Positions 1,201 through 28,158 of a stretch of 33,445 nt of DNA are shown here, piece by piece; position 1 is the first letter of the stretch; each line of letters opens with the position of its first letter. Origin of the DNA: Kiritimatiellales bacterium. GTDB lineage: Bacteria > Verrucomicrobiota > Kiritimatiellia > UBA8416 > JAIOPI01. The stretch is taken from the NCBI GenBank assembly GCA_945949405.1, contig CAMFEP010000008.1:1-33445 (forward strand), in the 5' to 3' direction. The notes below the pieces were generated by a model. The model searched no databases. It was given only the letters and a program-made list of their open reading frames with translations, and was not told where the DNA came from. The position numbers and the translations under genes were made by a program.

Positions 1201-1277
1201 GCACCCGTAGCTCAACTGGATAGAGCACCAGACTACGAATCTGGGGGTTACAGGTTCGACTCCTGTCGGGTGCACCA
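1201..1277 (+). tRNA. tRNA-Arg(ACG), CCA encoded
   Basis: GCACCCG/CGGGTGC acceptor, D-arm TAGCTCAACTGGATAGAGCA, anticodon arm CCAGA-CTACGAA-TCTGG, T-arm CAGGTTCGACTCCTG, ACCA end. Confidence 0.97.
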
Positions 1278-3918: not shown

Positions 3919-3943
3919 CCAAGCATAATTTAATTTCGTAAGA

Positions 3944-4080
3944 AGTCTTCAGGGCTCGGTGACTCCGTCCGCGAGGGTGGGGAAGTCCGAACCGGCGGTA
4001 TAGCCCGCGACTCCTGCCTCACGGCGGGACTGATTCGGTGAAACTCCGAGGCCGACAGTAAAGTCTGGATGGAAGAAGAT
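3944..4080 (+). ncRNA. FMN riboswitch (RFN element)
   Basis: TCTTCAGGGC..., ACCGGCGGTATAGCCCGCGA, GATTCGGTGAAACTCCGAGGCCGACAGTAAAGTCTGGATGGAAGAAGA; upstream of ribBA. Confidence 0.96.
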
Positions 4081-4103
4081 CTTCTGTGAAGGCATTGTGT
4101 CAA

Positions 4104-4143
4104 ATGCCCGGGCAGAATTCTTTTTCCCCGGGTATTTTTTTTT
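4104..4143 (+). terminator. Rho-independent terminator, expression platform of the FMN riboswitch
   Basis: ATGCCCGGG-loop-CCCGGGTAT hairpin followed by about nine T. Confidence 0.85.
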
Positions 4144-4172
4144 GGCGCGGCTGGAAGCCGCGAACGGGACAC

Positions 4173-5435
4173 ATGCACGCATCGAAGACCATACGCCGCA
4201 CACCGCGGGCCAGCACGGGCGCCCAGCCGGGGGCTGCCGACTTTGATTCCGTCCCCCGTGTACTCGAGGCCCTGCACAACGGGCAGATGGTGGTGATTGC
4301 CGACGACAACCAGCGCGAAAACGAGGGTGACATCGTGGTGGCCGCCGGGCTGGTCACCGAGGCGCACATCAATTTTCTGTCCCGCCACGGGCGTGGGTTG
4401 ATCTGCGTGGCGCTCCCACGCGCGCGGCTCGCGCGCCTGGGAATCGGGCGCATGCCGGTGAAGGGAAACGGTGATGCGTTTCAAACCGCGTTCATGGAGT
4501 CGGTCGATGCGGTTGGTAGAGACGTGACCACCGGGATCAGCGCCCACGATCGCGCAGCCACCGTGCGGCTGCTGATGTGCGATGATGCACGCCCGGGCGA
4601 TTTTGCAAGTCCGGGGCATATGTTTCCGCTCGAATCCATGGAAGGCGGAGTGCTGCAGCGCCCGGGACATACGGAAGCGGCGGTCGATCTCACGCGCCTG
4701 GCCGGGCTCGAACCCGGCGGAGTGATCTGCGAAGTGTTGCGCGAGGACGGCACCATGGCACGCCTCCCGGATTTGCACGCATTCGCGCGTACGCATGGGT
4801 TGTGCATCACCAGCGTGGCGGAAGTCATGGCCTACCGCCGACAGCACGAGTCGCTCGTGGATTTCACCCGCGAGGTGCAATTGCCGACTGCCTGGGGGGA
4901 ATTCCGGCTGCGTTTGTATCGCGCACGTTTCACCGGTGAGGAACATGTGGCCCTTGTGCGCGGCAATGTCGCCGGAACTGAACCCGTACTGGTGCGCCTG
5001 CATAGCGAGTGCCTGACGGGTGACGTTTTTGGCTCGTTGCGCTGCGATTGTGGTCAGCAAATGGCCGCGGCCATGGACCGTATTGTCGAGGCTGGTGCGG
5101 GGGTGTTGCTGTATTTGCGCCAGGAGGGCCGGGGGATTGGCCTGGCCAATAAAATTCATGCGTATGCCCTGCAGGATGGCGGCTTGGATACCGTAGAGGC
5201 CAACGAACAGCTGGGGTTCGAGGCGGATTTACGCAGCTACGACGAAGGCGCGCAAATGTTGCGGGACCTCGGGGTGCTACGCGTGCGCCTGATCACCAAC
5301 AATCCGGACAAAGTGCAGGGACTCGAAGCCAACGGCATTACAATTGTTGAACGGGTGCCGCTGGTGTGTTCTGCCGGCCAGCACAATGCGCGCTACCTGC
5401 GAACTAAAAAAGAAAAACTGGGGCATATGCTGTGA
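4173..5435 (+). CDS. ribBA: Bifunctional 3,4-dihydroxy-2-butanone-4-phosphate synthase / GTP cyclohydrolase II
   Basis: [15 protein letters not shown] (RibB) and [20 protein letters not shown] (RibA). Start set at 4173 because the ORF-track start at 4086 lies upstream of the terminator. Confidence 0.96.
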
Positions 5436-8968: not shown

Positions 8969-8973
8969 TTTAC

Positions 8974-9351
8974 GGCGGGGGCGATCAGTCGCCCCGTGAC
9001 CTTCGGGTTGCGGGGAGGAAAGTCCGGACTCCACAGGGCGGGATGCCACGCTTATGCGTGGGACTCTTTGGTGAAGCGAAGAGGACGGAAAGTGCCACAG
9101 AGAATATACCGCCACGCGGCTTTCGGGCCGCGGGGTAAGGGTGAAAAGGTGGTGTAAGAGACCACCGGGTCGCACCGTAAGGGGCGGCCGCATGGCAAAC
9201 CCCATTCGGAGCAAGATCAAATAGGAAACCGGAGGCGGCCCGCCTCGCGCGGAGTGGCTTTACGGCTGCTCTGTAATGGTTTCGGGTTGATCGCGTAGAT
9301 GAATGACTGATCCCGCTTGCGGGAAACAGAATCCGGCTTATGTCCCCCGCC
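8974..9351 (+). ncRNA. rnpB: RNase P RNA (bacterial class A)
   Basis: GAGGAAAGTCCGGACTCC, GGTAAGGGTGAAAAGGTGGTGTAAGAGACCACCG, AGATGAATGACTG, ACAGAATCCGGCTTA. P1 pairs GGCGGGGG (8974-8981) with CCCCCGCC (9344-9351). Confidence 0.97.
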
Positions 9352-10230
9352 GTTTCTTTTCGTATTTGGACTATTCGTGCCGCCTGGGCGCTGCTTGCCG
9401 CCACGATGCTGTTCGCCGCCCTCTTGGGATACCGGACGCATATTTTTCTGGCGTCCACACCGCTACCAAACAGCTCCACTCCTGCCAGCGCGCCGGAGGC
9501 GGACACCACGGTGCACCTGCAAAAATTGGATTGGAGTTTATTTCGCGGCAGGGTGGGGGGCTCCGCGGGCGGGGAGAATGCCCTGACGCAGCGCTTTCGT
9601 CTCGCGGGCACGTTCTTTGAATTCACCGCGATGGGCAGCAACACCAGGCTTGCCATCATGGACGACGCACTGAAAGGACAGCAATTATTGTTACGGGAGC
9701 GCGACCTCATTGATGATGTTCTCGTGGTTCAAATTCTTCGTGATCGGGTGTTGTTGCGGGAGGGCACTGGTCAGGAAGCGGAACTTTTTATGGATTTTTC
9801 GGGTGATGTGGACGCGCCGGATGAAGCGACGTCGACAAATGCACCCACCGGTCCCAGCGCACAGTATGGCGGCAGCCGGGTGGGGGACACGCGCTGGACC
9901 TTTGATCGTGGCACCCTACTCCGCTATTATCAGGATTTGCGAGATCAACCGGAACGCTTGGTTCTGCTCTTCGACTCCCTGAAACCCGTATACACCTCCG
10001 ATCGACGCATCAGCGGCTACCAACTTGGGATTGAGGGCGAAAAGGAGTTTTTTGATGCTGTGGGGCTGCAGCAAGGTGATGTCGTACGCCGGGTCAACAA
10101 TGTGGACATGACGGACCGCCGGCGTGCTGAATTCTTCATCAGCCAGTTCGTGCGCAACGAAGCCACGGCTTTCATGCTGGATATCGAGCGGGGCGGAAGC
10201 ACCAACAAATTGATCTACGAGGTCCGCTGA
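9340..10230 (+). CDS. GspC-like protein (N-terminal TM, HR domain, C-terminal PDZ)
   Basis: N-terminal TM helix; HR-like LAGTFFEFTAMGSNTRLAIMDD...VLLREGTGQEAELFM; PDZ GYQLGIEGEKEFFDAVGLQQGDVVRRVNNVDMTD. Start uncertain because it overlaps rnpB P1. Confidence 0.75.
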   Translation: MSPAVSFRIWTIRAAWALLAATMLFAALLGYRTHIFLASTPLPNSSTPASAPEADTTVHLQKLDWSLFRGRVGGSAGGENALTQRFRLAGTFFEFTAMGSNTRLAIMDDALKGQQLLLRERDLIDDVLVVQILRDRVLLREGTGQEAELFMDFSGDVDAPDEATSTNAPTGPSAQYGGSRVGDTRWTFDRGTLLRYYQDLRDQPERLVLLFDSLKPVYTSDRRISGYQLGIEGEKEFFDAVGLQQGDVVRRVNNVDMTDRRRAEFFISQFVRNEATAFMLDIERGGSTNKLIYEVR

Positions 10231-25709: not shown

Positions 25710-27662
25710 TCAAAAATACAAATTCACCCGCACGTGCGCTTCCTGAAACTCGTATGCATCCCGCCGCACCGTGGACAGCTCCATGCTGATGCTGCGATTC
25801 GGTGTCAGGCTAAAATCCTGGCCCCACGTCAGCGCGATATCCCAAAATTCCACCCCCAGGGCATAGTACGTGGCACGCGCCTCGATCAGATGCTTCCAGC
25901 GTGGCCCCACCATCGCCATCACCCCCACCGCAGGGCCCATGCCGATTGCATAATCCTCGTCACCAAGCCGCGGCCCCGCCAGGCCACGCGCCTCCACCCA
26001 ACCATATCCCAGCGCACCGCCGCGTGACTCCGCCGCCAGCCCCGCACCCGTCTGCGCCTGCAACACGAGTCGATCCCCCGCCTCGCCTCGATCCGCTTGC
26101 TCCGCTCCCGCGCTGAATTTCCATGAGCCTGGCGCAAAGAAATCGTCACGCGCCGCAATCGATTCCACATGCACCACATCCAGGCGCTGGAGACGGAAAT
26201 AGTCGCGCTCGAAATCGTAGCGCGTCTCCGTACTCAAAAACTGAATTTCGGCCCCCTTTTCGTAGCCCGCATCGTTGTCCAGTAGCGCATGGTAGGCGAT
26301 GCGCCCGCGCAGTGACGCAAATACATCGTCTTCCCGCACCCCGACCCCCGTGGATAGGCGCATCGGCGCATGCCCGTGATCCGGCCGGGGCGGTGGCGGG
26401 ATTGTGTTGGCCTCTACCGGGAGCGCCCCCAGCTTGCTGCGCGCGCGCAACGTATCCATCAGCATGGGACTGTAACGCGCCTTGGCCAGTTTTTCCTCGG
26501 TGTACAAATACTGGATGTACTCCGACGCCAGCTCCAGCACCACGGCCCGGTTGGTCGGATCCGGCACCGTCATTGCAAGATCCGCCACATTGGTCTGACC
26601 GCGCGCCACCCTTCGCGCCAGCGCGCGCTCCGGCGCATCCAACTGTTTGGCCAGATGCCGGATGCGCGTGACCTGCGACGGCCGGTATTGTACGTCCGTC
26701 ACCAGCCCCCGCCCGTCAATAGCTTTGACGGTATCAATGGGGATCACGAACCAGTCATGCACATCGCTCAAACCCAATTCCGGCCGAGCCACTTCCAGCA
26801 GGAAATACAAATTGTAGGCACAATTTTCGCTGAAGAAGAAATAGCGGCTCCAGATGTTTTGTAGCTCCCACGCGTGCCCAATCATGCGCTCCACTTCGTT
26901 GGACGAAAAATCCAGGTTGTATTCCCAGACGTCGCGGTGCCCGATGTCGCCGTACTGCTCGACCTTCTCGTAGTATGGCTGGATACTGTAAAATCCGGGA
27001 TACATACCTGCCATTCCAGCAAAAGCAAACAACGGACCAAAGCTAGTGTTTACTTTGGCTGCATAGCTTACAGATTTTGCTAAAAGCCTGTTTTTTTCAC
27101 GCGAATCGAAGACCAATAGTGTGTGACCAAACATCGAAGCCGGACCGTTCATGTAGGCCGCGGGAAAGACCAGCGTCACGTGGGTGACATCCAGATAATA
27201 ACTGACCAAGTTGAACTTCGCACATTCGGGCACCGGCAGTTGCGCCGGATCGATGGTCAGCTTCTCCCGCAGCCAGGTGTAACGGGCAACAAAGCGGCAG
27301 ACCGGGTGCTCGAGCTCATTCGTCCCCGCGGGTCGAAAAAATGCCCGCAAAGTCGCCGCCAGTTCATGGCGCGGATTAAACTTGCCGTCGGGCGCGCTAA
27401 AAAATCGAGGATCATCGACCAGGCTGACGTATCCGCCCAGTAGCGCGGGCTTGTAATGCAACAGGCTGTGCCACGTGGGATCGGCATAAAGCCGCAAACC
27501 CTCGGCCTGCGCCACCAACGCTTCGGCGTAGTTGGTCTCGCCGCCTGGAGGGCGAGGCTGTGCCGAGCCGTCCGCCAGGACGGTGTTACCAACAAAAATC
27601 AGGATGAAAAAAGCGACAGGCCGCCAAGGCAGCCTGTCGCTTCGTCGATCAACGGCTTGCAC
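25710..27662 (-). CDS. DUF4105 (Lnb N-terminal periplasmic-like) protein with C-terminal outer-membrane beta-barrel
   Basis: AAYMNGPASMFGHTLLVFDS, ENCAYNLYFLLEVARPEL; C-terminal ~240 aa of alternating strands ending HVRVNLYF. GTG start at 27662. Confidence 0.85.
   Translation of the reverse strand: MQAVDRRSDRLPWRPVAFFILIFVGNTVLADGSAQPRPPGGETNYAEALVAQAEGLRLYADPTWHSLLHYKPALLGGYVSLVDDPRFFSAPDGKFNPRHELAATLRAFFRPAGTNELEHPVCRFVARYTWLREKLTIDPAQLPVPECAKFNLVSYYLDVTHVTLVFPAAYMNGPASMFGHTLLVFDSREKNRLLAKSVSYAAKVNTSFGPLFAFAGMAGMYPGFYSIQPYYEKVEQYGDIGHRDVWEYNLDFSSNEVERMIGHAWELQNIWSRYFFFSENCAYNLYFLLEVARPELGLSDVHDWFVIPIDTVKAIDGRGLVTDVQYRPSQVTRIRHLAKQLDAPERALARRVARGQTNVADLAMTVPDPTNRAVVLELASEYIQYLYTEEKLAKARYSPMLMDTLRARSKLGALPVEANTIPPPPRPDHGHAPMRLSTGVGVREDDVFASLRGRIAYHALLDNDAGYEKGAEIQFLSTETRYDFERDYFRLQRLDVVHVESIAARDDFFAPGSWKFSAGAEQADRGEAGDRLVLQAQTGAGLAAESRGGALGYGWVEARGLAGPRLGDEDYAIGMGPAVGVMAMVGPRWKHLIEARATYYALGVEFWDIALTWGQDFSLTPNRSISMELSTVRRDAYEFQEAHVRVNLYF
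27607..27642 (-). terminator. Rho-independent terminator after the DUF3015 gene, inside the DUF4105 signal-peptide codons
   Basis: Minus strand AAGCGACAGGC-tgccttggcg-GCCTGTCGCTT-TTTT: 11-bp perfect stem and T tract. Confidence 0.8.
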
Positions 27663-27666
27663 GAAA

Positions 27667-28134
27667 TTAGCCGTTGAGCACCTTGTCCATGTTGCGCACG
27701 ACGTCCATGGACGTCACTTCGCTCGTGGGGAAGATGCTTTCGAAGCTGCCCTGCAGTTTCGCGAACAGGTCAGCGCGTCCGGTCGCCGACACGTCCATCA
27801 GGTCCGCCAGCGCGTTCAGGGACTCACCCTGGCCCGCCGCCACGTCCATGATCAACTGGTCCATGTTCTCCGCCACATACTGCTGCACCCGGGTGTTGGA
27901 TGCCATGCCCGCGTGCGGCTCGCACTCCAGCGTGCCCGACGAGATACCGAACGTCTGATTGCCGCAAATGGCACCGTTCAGGAAGGTGGCGGCCAACTGC
28001 GACAGCATCGTCGGCTCCTGATCGCCCAGCGCCATCGTACCCAAGCCACAACCGCAGTTATCACGAATCGTTCCCGCCGCAAACGTACCCGTCGCCGCCA
28101 GCGCCACTGCCAGGATCAATACCTGTTTCTTCAC
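27667..28134 (-). CDS. DUF3015 family secreted protein, 155 aa
   Basis: GTG start with GGAGG ribosome-binding site; signal peptide; AAGTIRDNCGCGLGTMALG, GNQTFGISSGTLEC, YVAENMDQLIMDVAAGQGESL. Confidence 0.85.
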   Translation of the reverse strand: MKKQVLILAVALAATGTFAAGTIRDNCGCGLGTMALGDQEPTMLSQLAATFLNGAICGNQTFGISSGTLECEPHAGMASNTRVQQYVAENMDQLIMDVAAGQGESLNALADLMDVSATGRADLFAKLQGSFESIFPTSEVTSMDVVRNMDKVLNG

Positions 28135-28158
28135 TGCGACCTCCTGCCTTATTGTTAC

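Follow-up and report, generated by a model that had tools for sequence, protein, structure and literature searches.

The predicted intrinsic terminator of a DUF3015 gene lies inside the gene that follows it, where its hairpin and T tract are read as the first signal-peptide codons of a DUF4105 protein. We identified this arrangement in the window (the whole 33,445-nt stretch of DNA analysed, a contig of a Kiritimatiellae MAG that is 76% complete) and in most of the DUF3015-DUF4105 junctions that we collected. We consider it fairly likely that the DUF3015 terminator limits DUF4105 to read-through transcripts, which are then translated by coupling. The junction in the window contains the following features:

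27667–28134, minus strand: DUF3015 gene (PF11220; profile match E 2.6e-32), with a GTG start at 28134

25710–27662, minus strand: DUF4105/Lnb_N gene (PF25225, PF13387 and PF25222), 650 amino acids

27611–27642, minus strand: predicted intrinsic terminator hairpin, AAGCGACAGGCTGC-CTTG-GCGGCCTGTCGCTT

27607–27612, minus strand: T tract of six T, coding for Phe-Phe; its first two T are also paired in the base of the stem

27649–27677, minus strand: weaker second predicted hairpin of 9 bp, which covers the DUF3015 stop and carries the DUF4105 GTG in its loop

The product of the DUF3015 gene is a small exported protein. A Shine-Dalgarno (SD) sequence, AGGAGG, is located at 28145–28140 ahead of its GTG, and the gene ends with a TAA stop at 27669–27667 (minus strand). 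The DUF4105 product is composed of the Pfam domains DUF7843, Lnb_N (formerly DUF4105) and, as its C-terminal part, DUF7840; Lnb_N (PF13387) scored 166.8 bits against a gathering cut-off of 22.2. Its GTG start (27662–27660) lies 4 nt downstream of the DUF3015 stop on the minus strand and is not preceded by an SD sequence (duplex −1.7 kcal/mol). This confirmed the original prediction on both points and fits the translational coupling that it suggested. From the hairpin to the mature part of the protein, the reading frame contains no in-frame ATG, GTG, or TTG. The second hairpin might conceal the DUF4105 start until a ribosome arrives; a similar one is present in locus L006, and none is visible in L002.

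The full element, AAGCGACAGGCTGC-CTTG-GCGGCCTGTCGCTT-TTTT, spans 27642–27607 on the minus strand; it begins 27 nt beyond the initial base of the DUF3015 TAA. It occupies the earliest DUF4105 codons, which specify the n-region of the signal peptide and the beginning of its h-region, the Phe-Phe codons of the T tract belonging to the latter. The proposed overlap between a terminator and signal-peptide codons was therefore borne out, and the bases do encode R-S-D-R-L-P-W-R-P-V-A-F-F as claimed. The stem had been drawn with 11 pairs and a 10-nt loop and needed correction, because it is formed by 14–15 pairs closed by a 4-nt loop. As in other intrinsic terminators, a G+C-rich stem follows soon after the upstream stop, with a T tract directly behind it. 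An 81-nt region including this element folded at −41.2 kcal/mol compared with −22.8 ± 3.2 kcal/mol for dinucleotide shuffles (z −5.8; 0 of 200). A simple scan for a terminator consensus gave no more matches than in shuffled sequence and listed the window site in truncated form only. Searches against Rfam 15 returned no match at the window junction at gathering score. For ten loci, no credible hit was obtained at the junction, those returned being sub-threshold and unrelated (up to E 1).

Using a DUF3015 alignment scan and Pfam searches, we gathered 83 distinct DUF3015-DUF4105 junctions, which are not independent of one another. A hairpin was found at the same place in 75 and within the DUF4105 open frame in 68, counts that combine both of our stem finders; the first had missed A+T-rich stems of Campylobacterota that were later revealed by folding. 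Across all junctions, mean folding energy in 46-nt windows was lowest at +24 relative to the DUF3015 stop (−19.5 kcal/mol; median there, −21.7 kcal/mol), with flanks near −8 kcal/mol, and in 59 of the 83 the energy minimum over 700 nt was located at this position. Measured from the initial base of the DUF3015 stop codon, the hairpin starts after a median of 28 nt (IQR 26–30). Its sequence varies among loci and its pairing is retained: stem arms showed 96% pairing within a locus versus 56% when arms of different loci were combined. Among the first eight loci, L004, L005, L006, L007, and L008 all have a hairpin in the corresponding position within the DUF4105 frame; the stem of L006, from the same genus as the window, is near-identical to the window's, whereas those of L004, L005, L007, and L008 are quite unlike it. 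An ATG with GGAG upstream sits immediately ahead of the stem in L007, and in L003 the hairpin overlaps the DUF4105 frame, yet a downstream ATG is also present.

According to record titles, which rely on MAG labels and may be wrong, the embedded cases come from Kiritimatiellota/Verrucomicrobia, delta-proteobacterial groups, Nitrospirota, MAGs labelled Spirochaetota, Eisenbacteria, Campylobacterota, and Aquificota. Because the hairpin recurs in distant phyla with differing sequences, we regard it as a real evolved feature. Relatives in many lineages also keep both the stem pairing and the signal peptide, as the proposed comparison called for. The dual use of these bases, described as unusual when first noticed, is thus genuine, although its recurrence means that it is not unique to the window.

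At the window locus alone, the hairpin could be ascribed to signal-peptide amino acids that happen to fold, or to a gene that truly starts further downstream. Synonymous recoding of this locus gave a z of −1.6, with 16 of 300 recodings folding equally well, a weak result at one locus. The force of the recoding test comes from the family as a whole, where recoding with each gene's own codon usage gave mean z values of −2.66 for the junction and −0.44 to 0.00 for seven other offsets. The T content behind the stem also exceeds what the amino acids require: 5.68 T were observed in the first 8 nt against a codon-based expectation of 4.43 (p 2e-9, 56 loci). This excess is confined to 8–10 nt past the stem; at about 10 nt the T content is back to the expected level. 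This is the pattern that an intrinsic terminator requires. An ATG, GTG, or TTG between the DUF3015 stop and the stem is present in the DUF4105 frame in 53 of 67 embedded loci, versus 10 and 11 of 67 for the other two frames; about 20% of embedded loci have no such codon in this interval. In 31 embedded loci with an upstream start, no ATG, GTG, or TTG follows within 12 codons past the hairpin, which argues against a downstream start. Generic terminators encode a basic-then-hydrophobic stretch slightly more often than shuffled sequence (16 of 122 open frames versus 139 of 1881), a point in favour of chance that gives only weak support to the broader idea that any terminator suits signal-peptide coding. 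With the codon-level, frame, and T tests all rejecting coincidence family-wide, we give that explanation almost no credence.

A fusion of DUF3015 and DUF4105 by frameshifting or stop-codon read-through was excluded, because the frame of one gene relative to the other differs among loci (offsets 0, 1, and 2 modulo 3). In L101 and L167, and also in L047, the DUF4105 open frame reaches back hundreds of bases over DUF3015 in another frame, and the hairpin is placed as usual.

Comparably strong hairpins with a T tract at the starts of genes were also counted. Taking the first 50 codons of each open frame, we identified them in only 3 of about 329 crude genes in 433 kb of the window genome, where the DUF4105 gene has the top score and another of the three corresponds to an FMN-riboswitch terminator. 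A 400-kb sample of a Kiritimatiellota genome contained 9 among 318 crude genes. DUF4105 accounts for one; of the rest, many probably sit ahead of the true start. In the collected loci, DUF4105 dominates the genes with a hairpin and T tract at the start of their open frame. Upstream of DUF3015, strong hairpins with a T tract also occur within other long open frames at L064:2149–2180 (+) and L040:690–723 (+), and these are possible further terminators at gene starts. The FMN riboswitch aptamer of the window (RF00050, 94.9 bits) is located at 3941–4084 (+), followed by its terminator hairpin and T tract at 4102–4137; the whole element (3941–4137, +) lies upstream of an open frame at 4062–5432 that looks like a riboflavin gene, read as putatively ribB/ribA-like. 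The window additionally contains a class A RNase P RNA (RF00010, 238.7 bits) at 8973–9356 (+) and a tRNA (RF00005) at 1201–1274 (+).

The translation signals of the two genes differ across the family. Median SD energies at start sites were −10.8 kcal/mol for DUF3015, −2.4 kcal/mol for internal start codons, and −0.7 kcal/mol for DUF4105; DUF3015 starts were picked as the best-SD candidate within a short stretch, which favours DUF3015 somewhat. Most DUF4105 starts lie 4–20 nt downstream of the DUF3015 stop, as would be expected for coupled reinitiation. Our suggestion that ribosomes reinitiate at DUF4105 draws on this start position and the missing SD sequence.

The terminator is not embedded everywhere. 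In L002, from the window's genus, the hairpin is followed by a stop codon and DUF4105 starts beyond it. Most Gammaproteobacteria possess an ordinary intergenic terminator at a similar distance, with DUF4105 beginning just past it, also without an SD sequence, and other scattered lineages likewise have the terminator ahead of the DUF4105 start. Embedding is therefore dispensable. Among cultured organisms, Desulfobotulus alkaliphilus (L077) has the intergenic form, and Kiritimatiellota bacterium B12222 (L052) and Aliarcobacter relatives have embedded ones. A terminator also follows DUF3015 in L031, L140, and L145, where no DUF4105 was found downstream. In L009 and L124, where DUF4105 is not directly behind DUF3015, folding revealed no comparable hairpin at its start; as judged from these two unpaired genes, the only ones folded, the hairpin is tied to the DUF3015-DUF4105 pair. 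A DUF4105 tree contains one large, mostly embedded group (77 of 87 members), with scattered shifts to the intergenic state, and a gammaproteobacterial group that is intergenic in 20 of 22. The two states required 12 changes on this tree versus 26.4 with shuffled labels, the labels being based on the open frame rather than a proven start and seven of them having been set by hand. Given this distribution, we regard the terminator as the common element and embedding as a frequent, reversible variant.

The original prediction went further and proposed that a coupled ribosome melts the hairpin, making DUF4105 expression dependent on DUF3015 translation. In such an attenuator, a reinitiating ribosome would trail the polymerase, enter the 5′ arm and block the hairpin, so that DUF4105 is transcribed only if DUF3015 is well translated. 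The frame test described above does place a translated open frame running into the terminator, as this would demand. As to a competing pairing, the small second hairpin at 27649–27677 was the only one seen. Start codons precede the hairpin in most lineages, in many by 14–21 nt, so translation of the first few codons would disturb the stem, and the pyrBI attenuator operates through ribosomes that translate into the terminator embedded in its frame (PMC4824070 and references therein). Against this, the arrangement would not be required in L002, in Gammaproteobacteria, or in several other lineages. Li et al (2015; PMC4824070) found in Escherichia coli that repression of a terminator by a ribosome at a stop codon is limited to distances below about 27 nt, and the 28-nt hairpin distance (IQR 26–30) is about at this published limit of interference. 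A terminator 30 bp into a second open reading frame lost only about 10% of its efficiency on translation, keeping about 90% and giving rise to non-stop mRNA (PMC4824070). Timing is a further difficulty: initiation takes 1–2 s, as cited in PMC4824070, and the polymerase would move from the stop to the T tract in about 1–2 s. The spacing, the modest loss of efficiency, and the intergenic terminators of L002 and Gammaproteobacteria leave the proposal unsupported in its stated form and argue against any requirement for ribosome-mediated attenuation of the trp or pyrBI type. We consider such gating unlikely as the principal explanation; a switch in which the ribosome melts the hairpin is possible, is not needed, and is probably minor. 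That signal-peptide codons of Lnb-like proteins serve in many phyla as deeply conserved, ribosome-sensitive terminators, with DUF4105 output reporting DUF3015 translation, is a possible if doubtful extension of the same idea. The distances of Li et al (2015) together with the 28-nt spacing instead favour a working terminator that limits DUF4105.

Termination might also be secondary to a role of the hairpin in translation or mRNA stability, whether by shielding processed DUF3015 mRNA at its 3′ end or by slowing ribosomes on DUF4105. This would suit loci in which very strong stems are accompanied by a poor T tract or none (L080, L089, and L093, and L045, L069, and L097 of Aquificota), where the hairpin may have another role. 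L089 and L093 contain an exceptionally long stem from +26 to +68 relative to the DUF3015 stop (TCTTCCTC; −41.7 kcal/mol) with a poor T tract. The T excess beyond amino-acid needs, restricted to just 8–10 nt behind the stem, is however what termination predicts, and the ordinary terminators at a similar distance in Gammaproteobacteria likewise argue against this role. We therefore regard it as quite improbable as the chief function.

For a terminator that limits DUF4105 to read-through transcripts, we propose the following mechanism. The hairpin and T tract would act as the DUF3015 gene's own intrinsic terminator. The majority of transcripts would stop at the T tract to give monocistronic DUF3015 mRNA, leaving a minority of read-through transcripts to carry DUF4105. 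On these, ribosomes finishing DUF3015 would reinitiate at the nearby SD-less start. Two spacing constraints would apply: a terminator out of reach of the terminating ribosome would have to begin about 25–30 nt downstream of the stop, and a start used for reinitiation could be at most about 20 nt from the same stop. Both would be satisfied only with the hairpin inside the gene. Because the SD-less DUF4105 gene starts upstream of the terminator, the terminator would have become signal-peptide coding sequence. A coupled start without an SD sequence would also keep ribosomes off terminated messages. The sequences themselves show where the hairpin lies and how it pairs, the T tract, selection at the codon level, where DUF4105 starts and its missing SD sequence, and the recurrence in many lineages. 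From these we infer that transcription terminates in living cells and how efficiently, that ribosomes reinitiate, and what the arrangement is for, which would be much DUF3015 and little DUF4105; the second protein is probably kept scarce relative to the first. A counterpoint is that so strong a stem might terminate nearly completely, with little DUF4105 left unless termination is relieved.

Several known systems share parts of this design. The frd terminator of E. coli doubles as the attenuator of ampC, so that, as here, the terminator of an upstream gene acts on the next gene; the ampC hairpin is located in a leader, unlike the DUF4105 hairpin in coding sequence. Partial intra-operon terminators that set gene ratios (PMC4824070) similarly place a strong terminator between cotranscribed genes and rely on read-through for downstream expression, whereas at the DUF4105 junction the terminator is within the downstream coding sequence, encodes a signal peptide, and does so repeatedly across phyla. 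The E. coli pyrBI attenuator (PMC4824070) is also an intrinsic terminator near the 5′ end of a translated open reading frame. That frame is a short leader coupled through transcription pausing; the window has a 650-residue SD-less structural gene, and no pause signal was identified. The closest geometry is that of the synthetic construct W48 (Li et al, 2015; PMC4824070), in which tR2 was placed 30 bp into the second open reading frame: it runs from gene to stop to start, with the terminator in the opening 100 bp of the second frame, a near-identical layout, and it showed efficient termination and non-stop mRNA. W48 is artificial and has an active ribosome-binding site, whereas natural DUF4105 genes start without an SD sequence, which would limit the number of ribosomes running off terminated messages.

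In Bacteroides, work cited in PMC12994826 identified Lnb_N/DUF4105 as a lipoprotein N-acyltransferase. Based on its domains, the window DUF4105 protein is a putative Lnb-like protein with DUF7840 at its C terminus. We found no described function for DUF3015 in the literature. One paper that names DUF3015 and two that name DUF4105 were found, and the abstracts and passages covered contained no account of the DUF3015-DUF4105 junction.

Terminators within coding sequences are usually dismissed as false predictions or as rare leader elements. The DUF3015-DUF4105 junction represents a terminator kept over long evolutionary times within a structural gene, with synonymous-site selection visible for both stem and T tract and with recurrence in Kiritimatiellota, Thermodesulfobacteriota, Nitrospirota, Campylobacterota, and other lineages. 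Gene callers may have misplaced the DUF4105 start at such loci. The family offers dozens of natural replicates for studying how a terminator acts inside a translated gene, and these loci also bear on the means by which coupled starts without an SD sequence escape non-stop messages, and on why the ratio of DUF3015 to the Lnb-like protein would be controlled.
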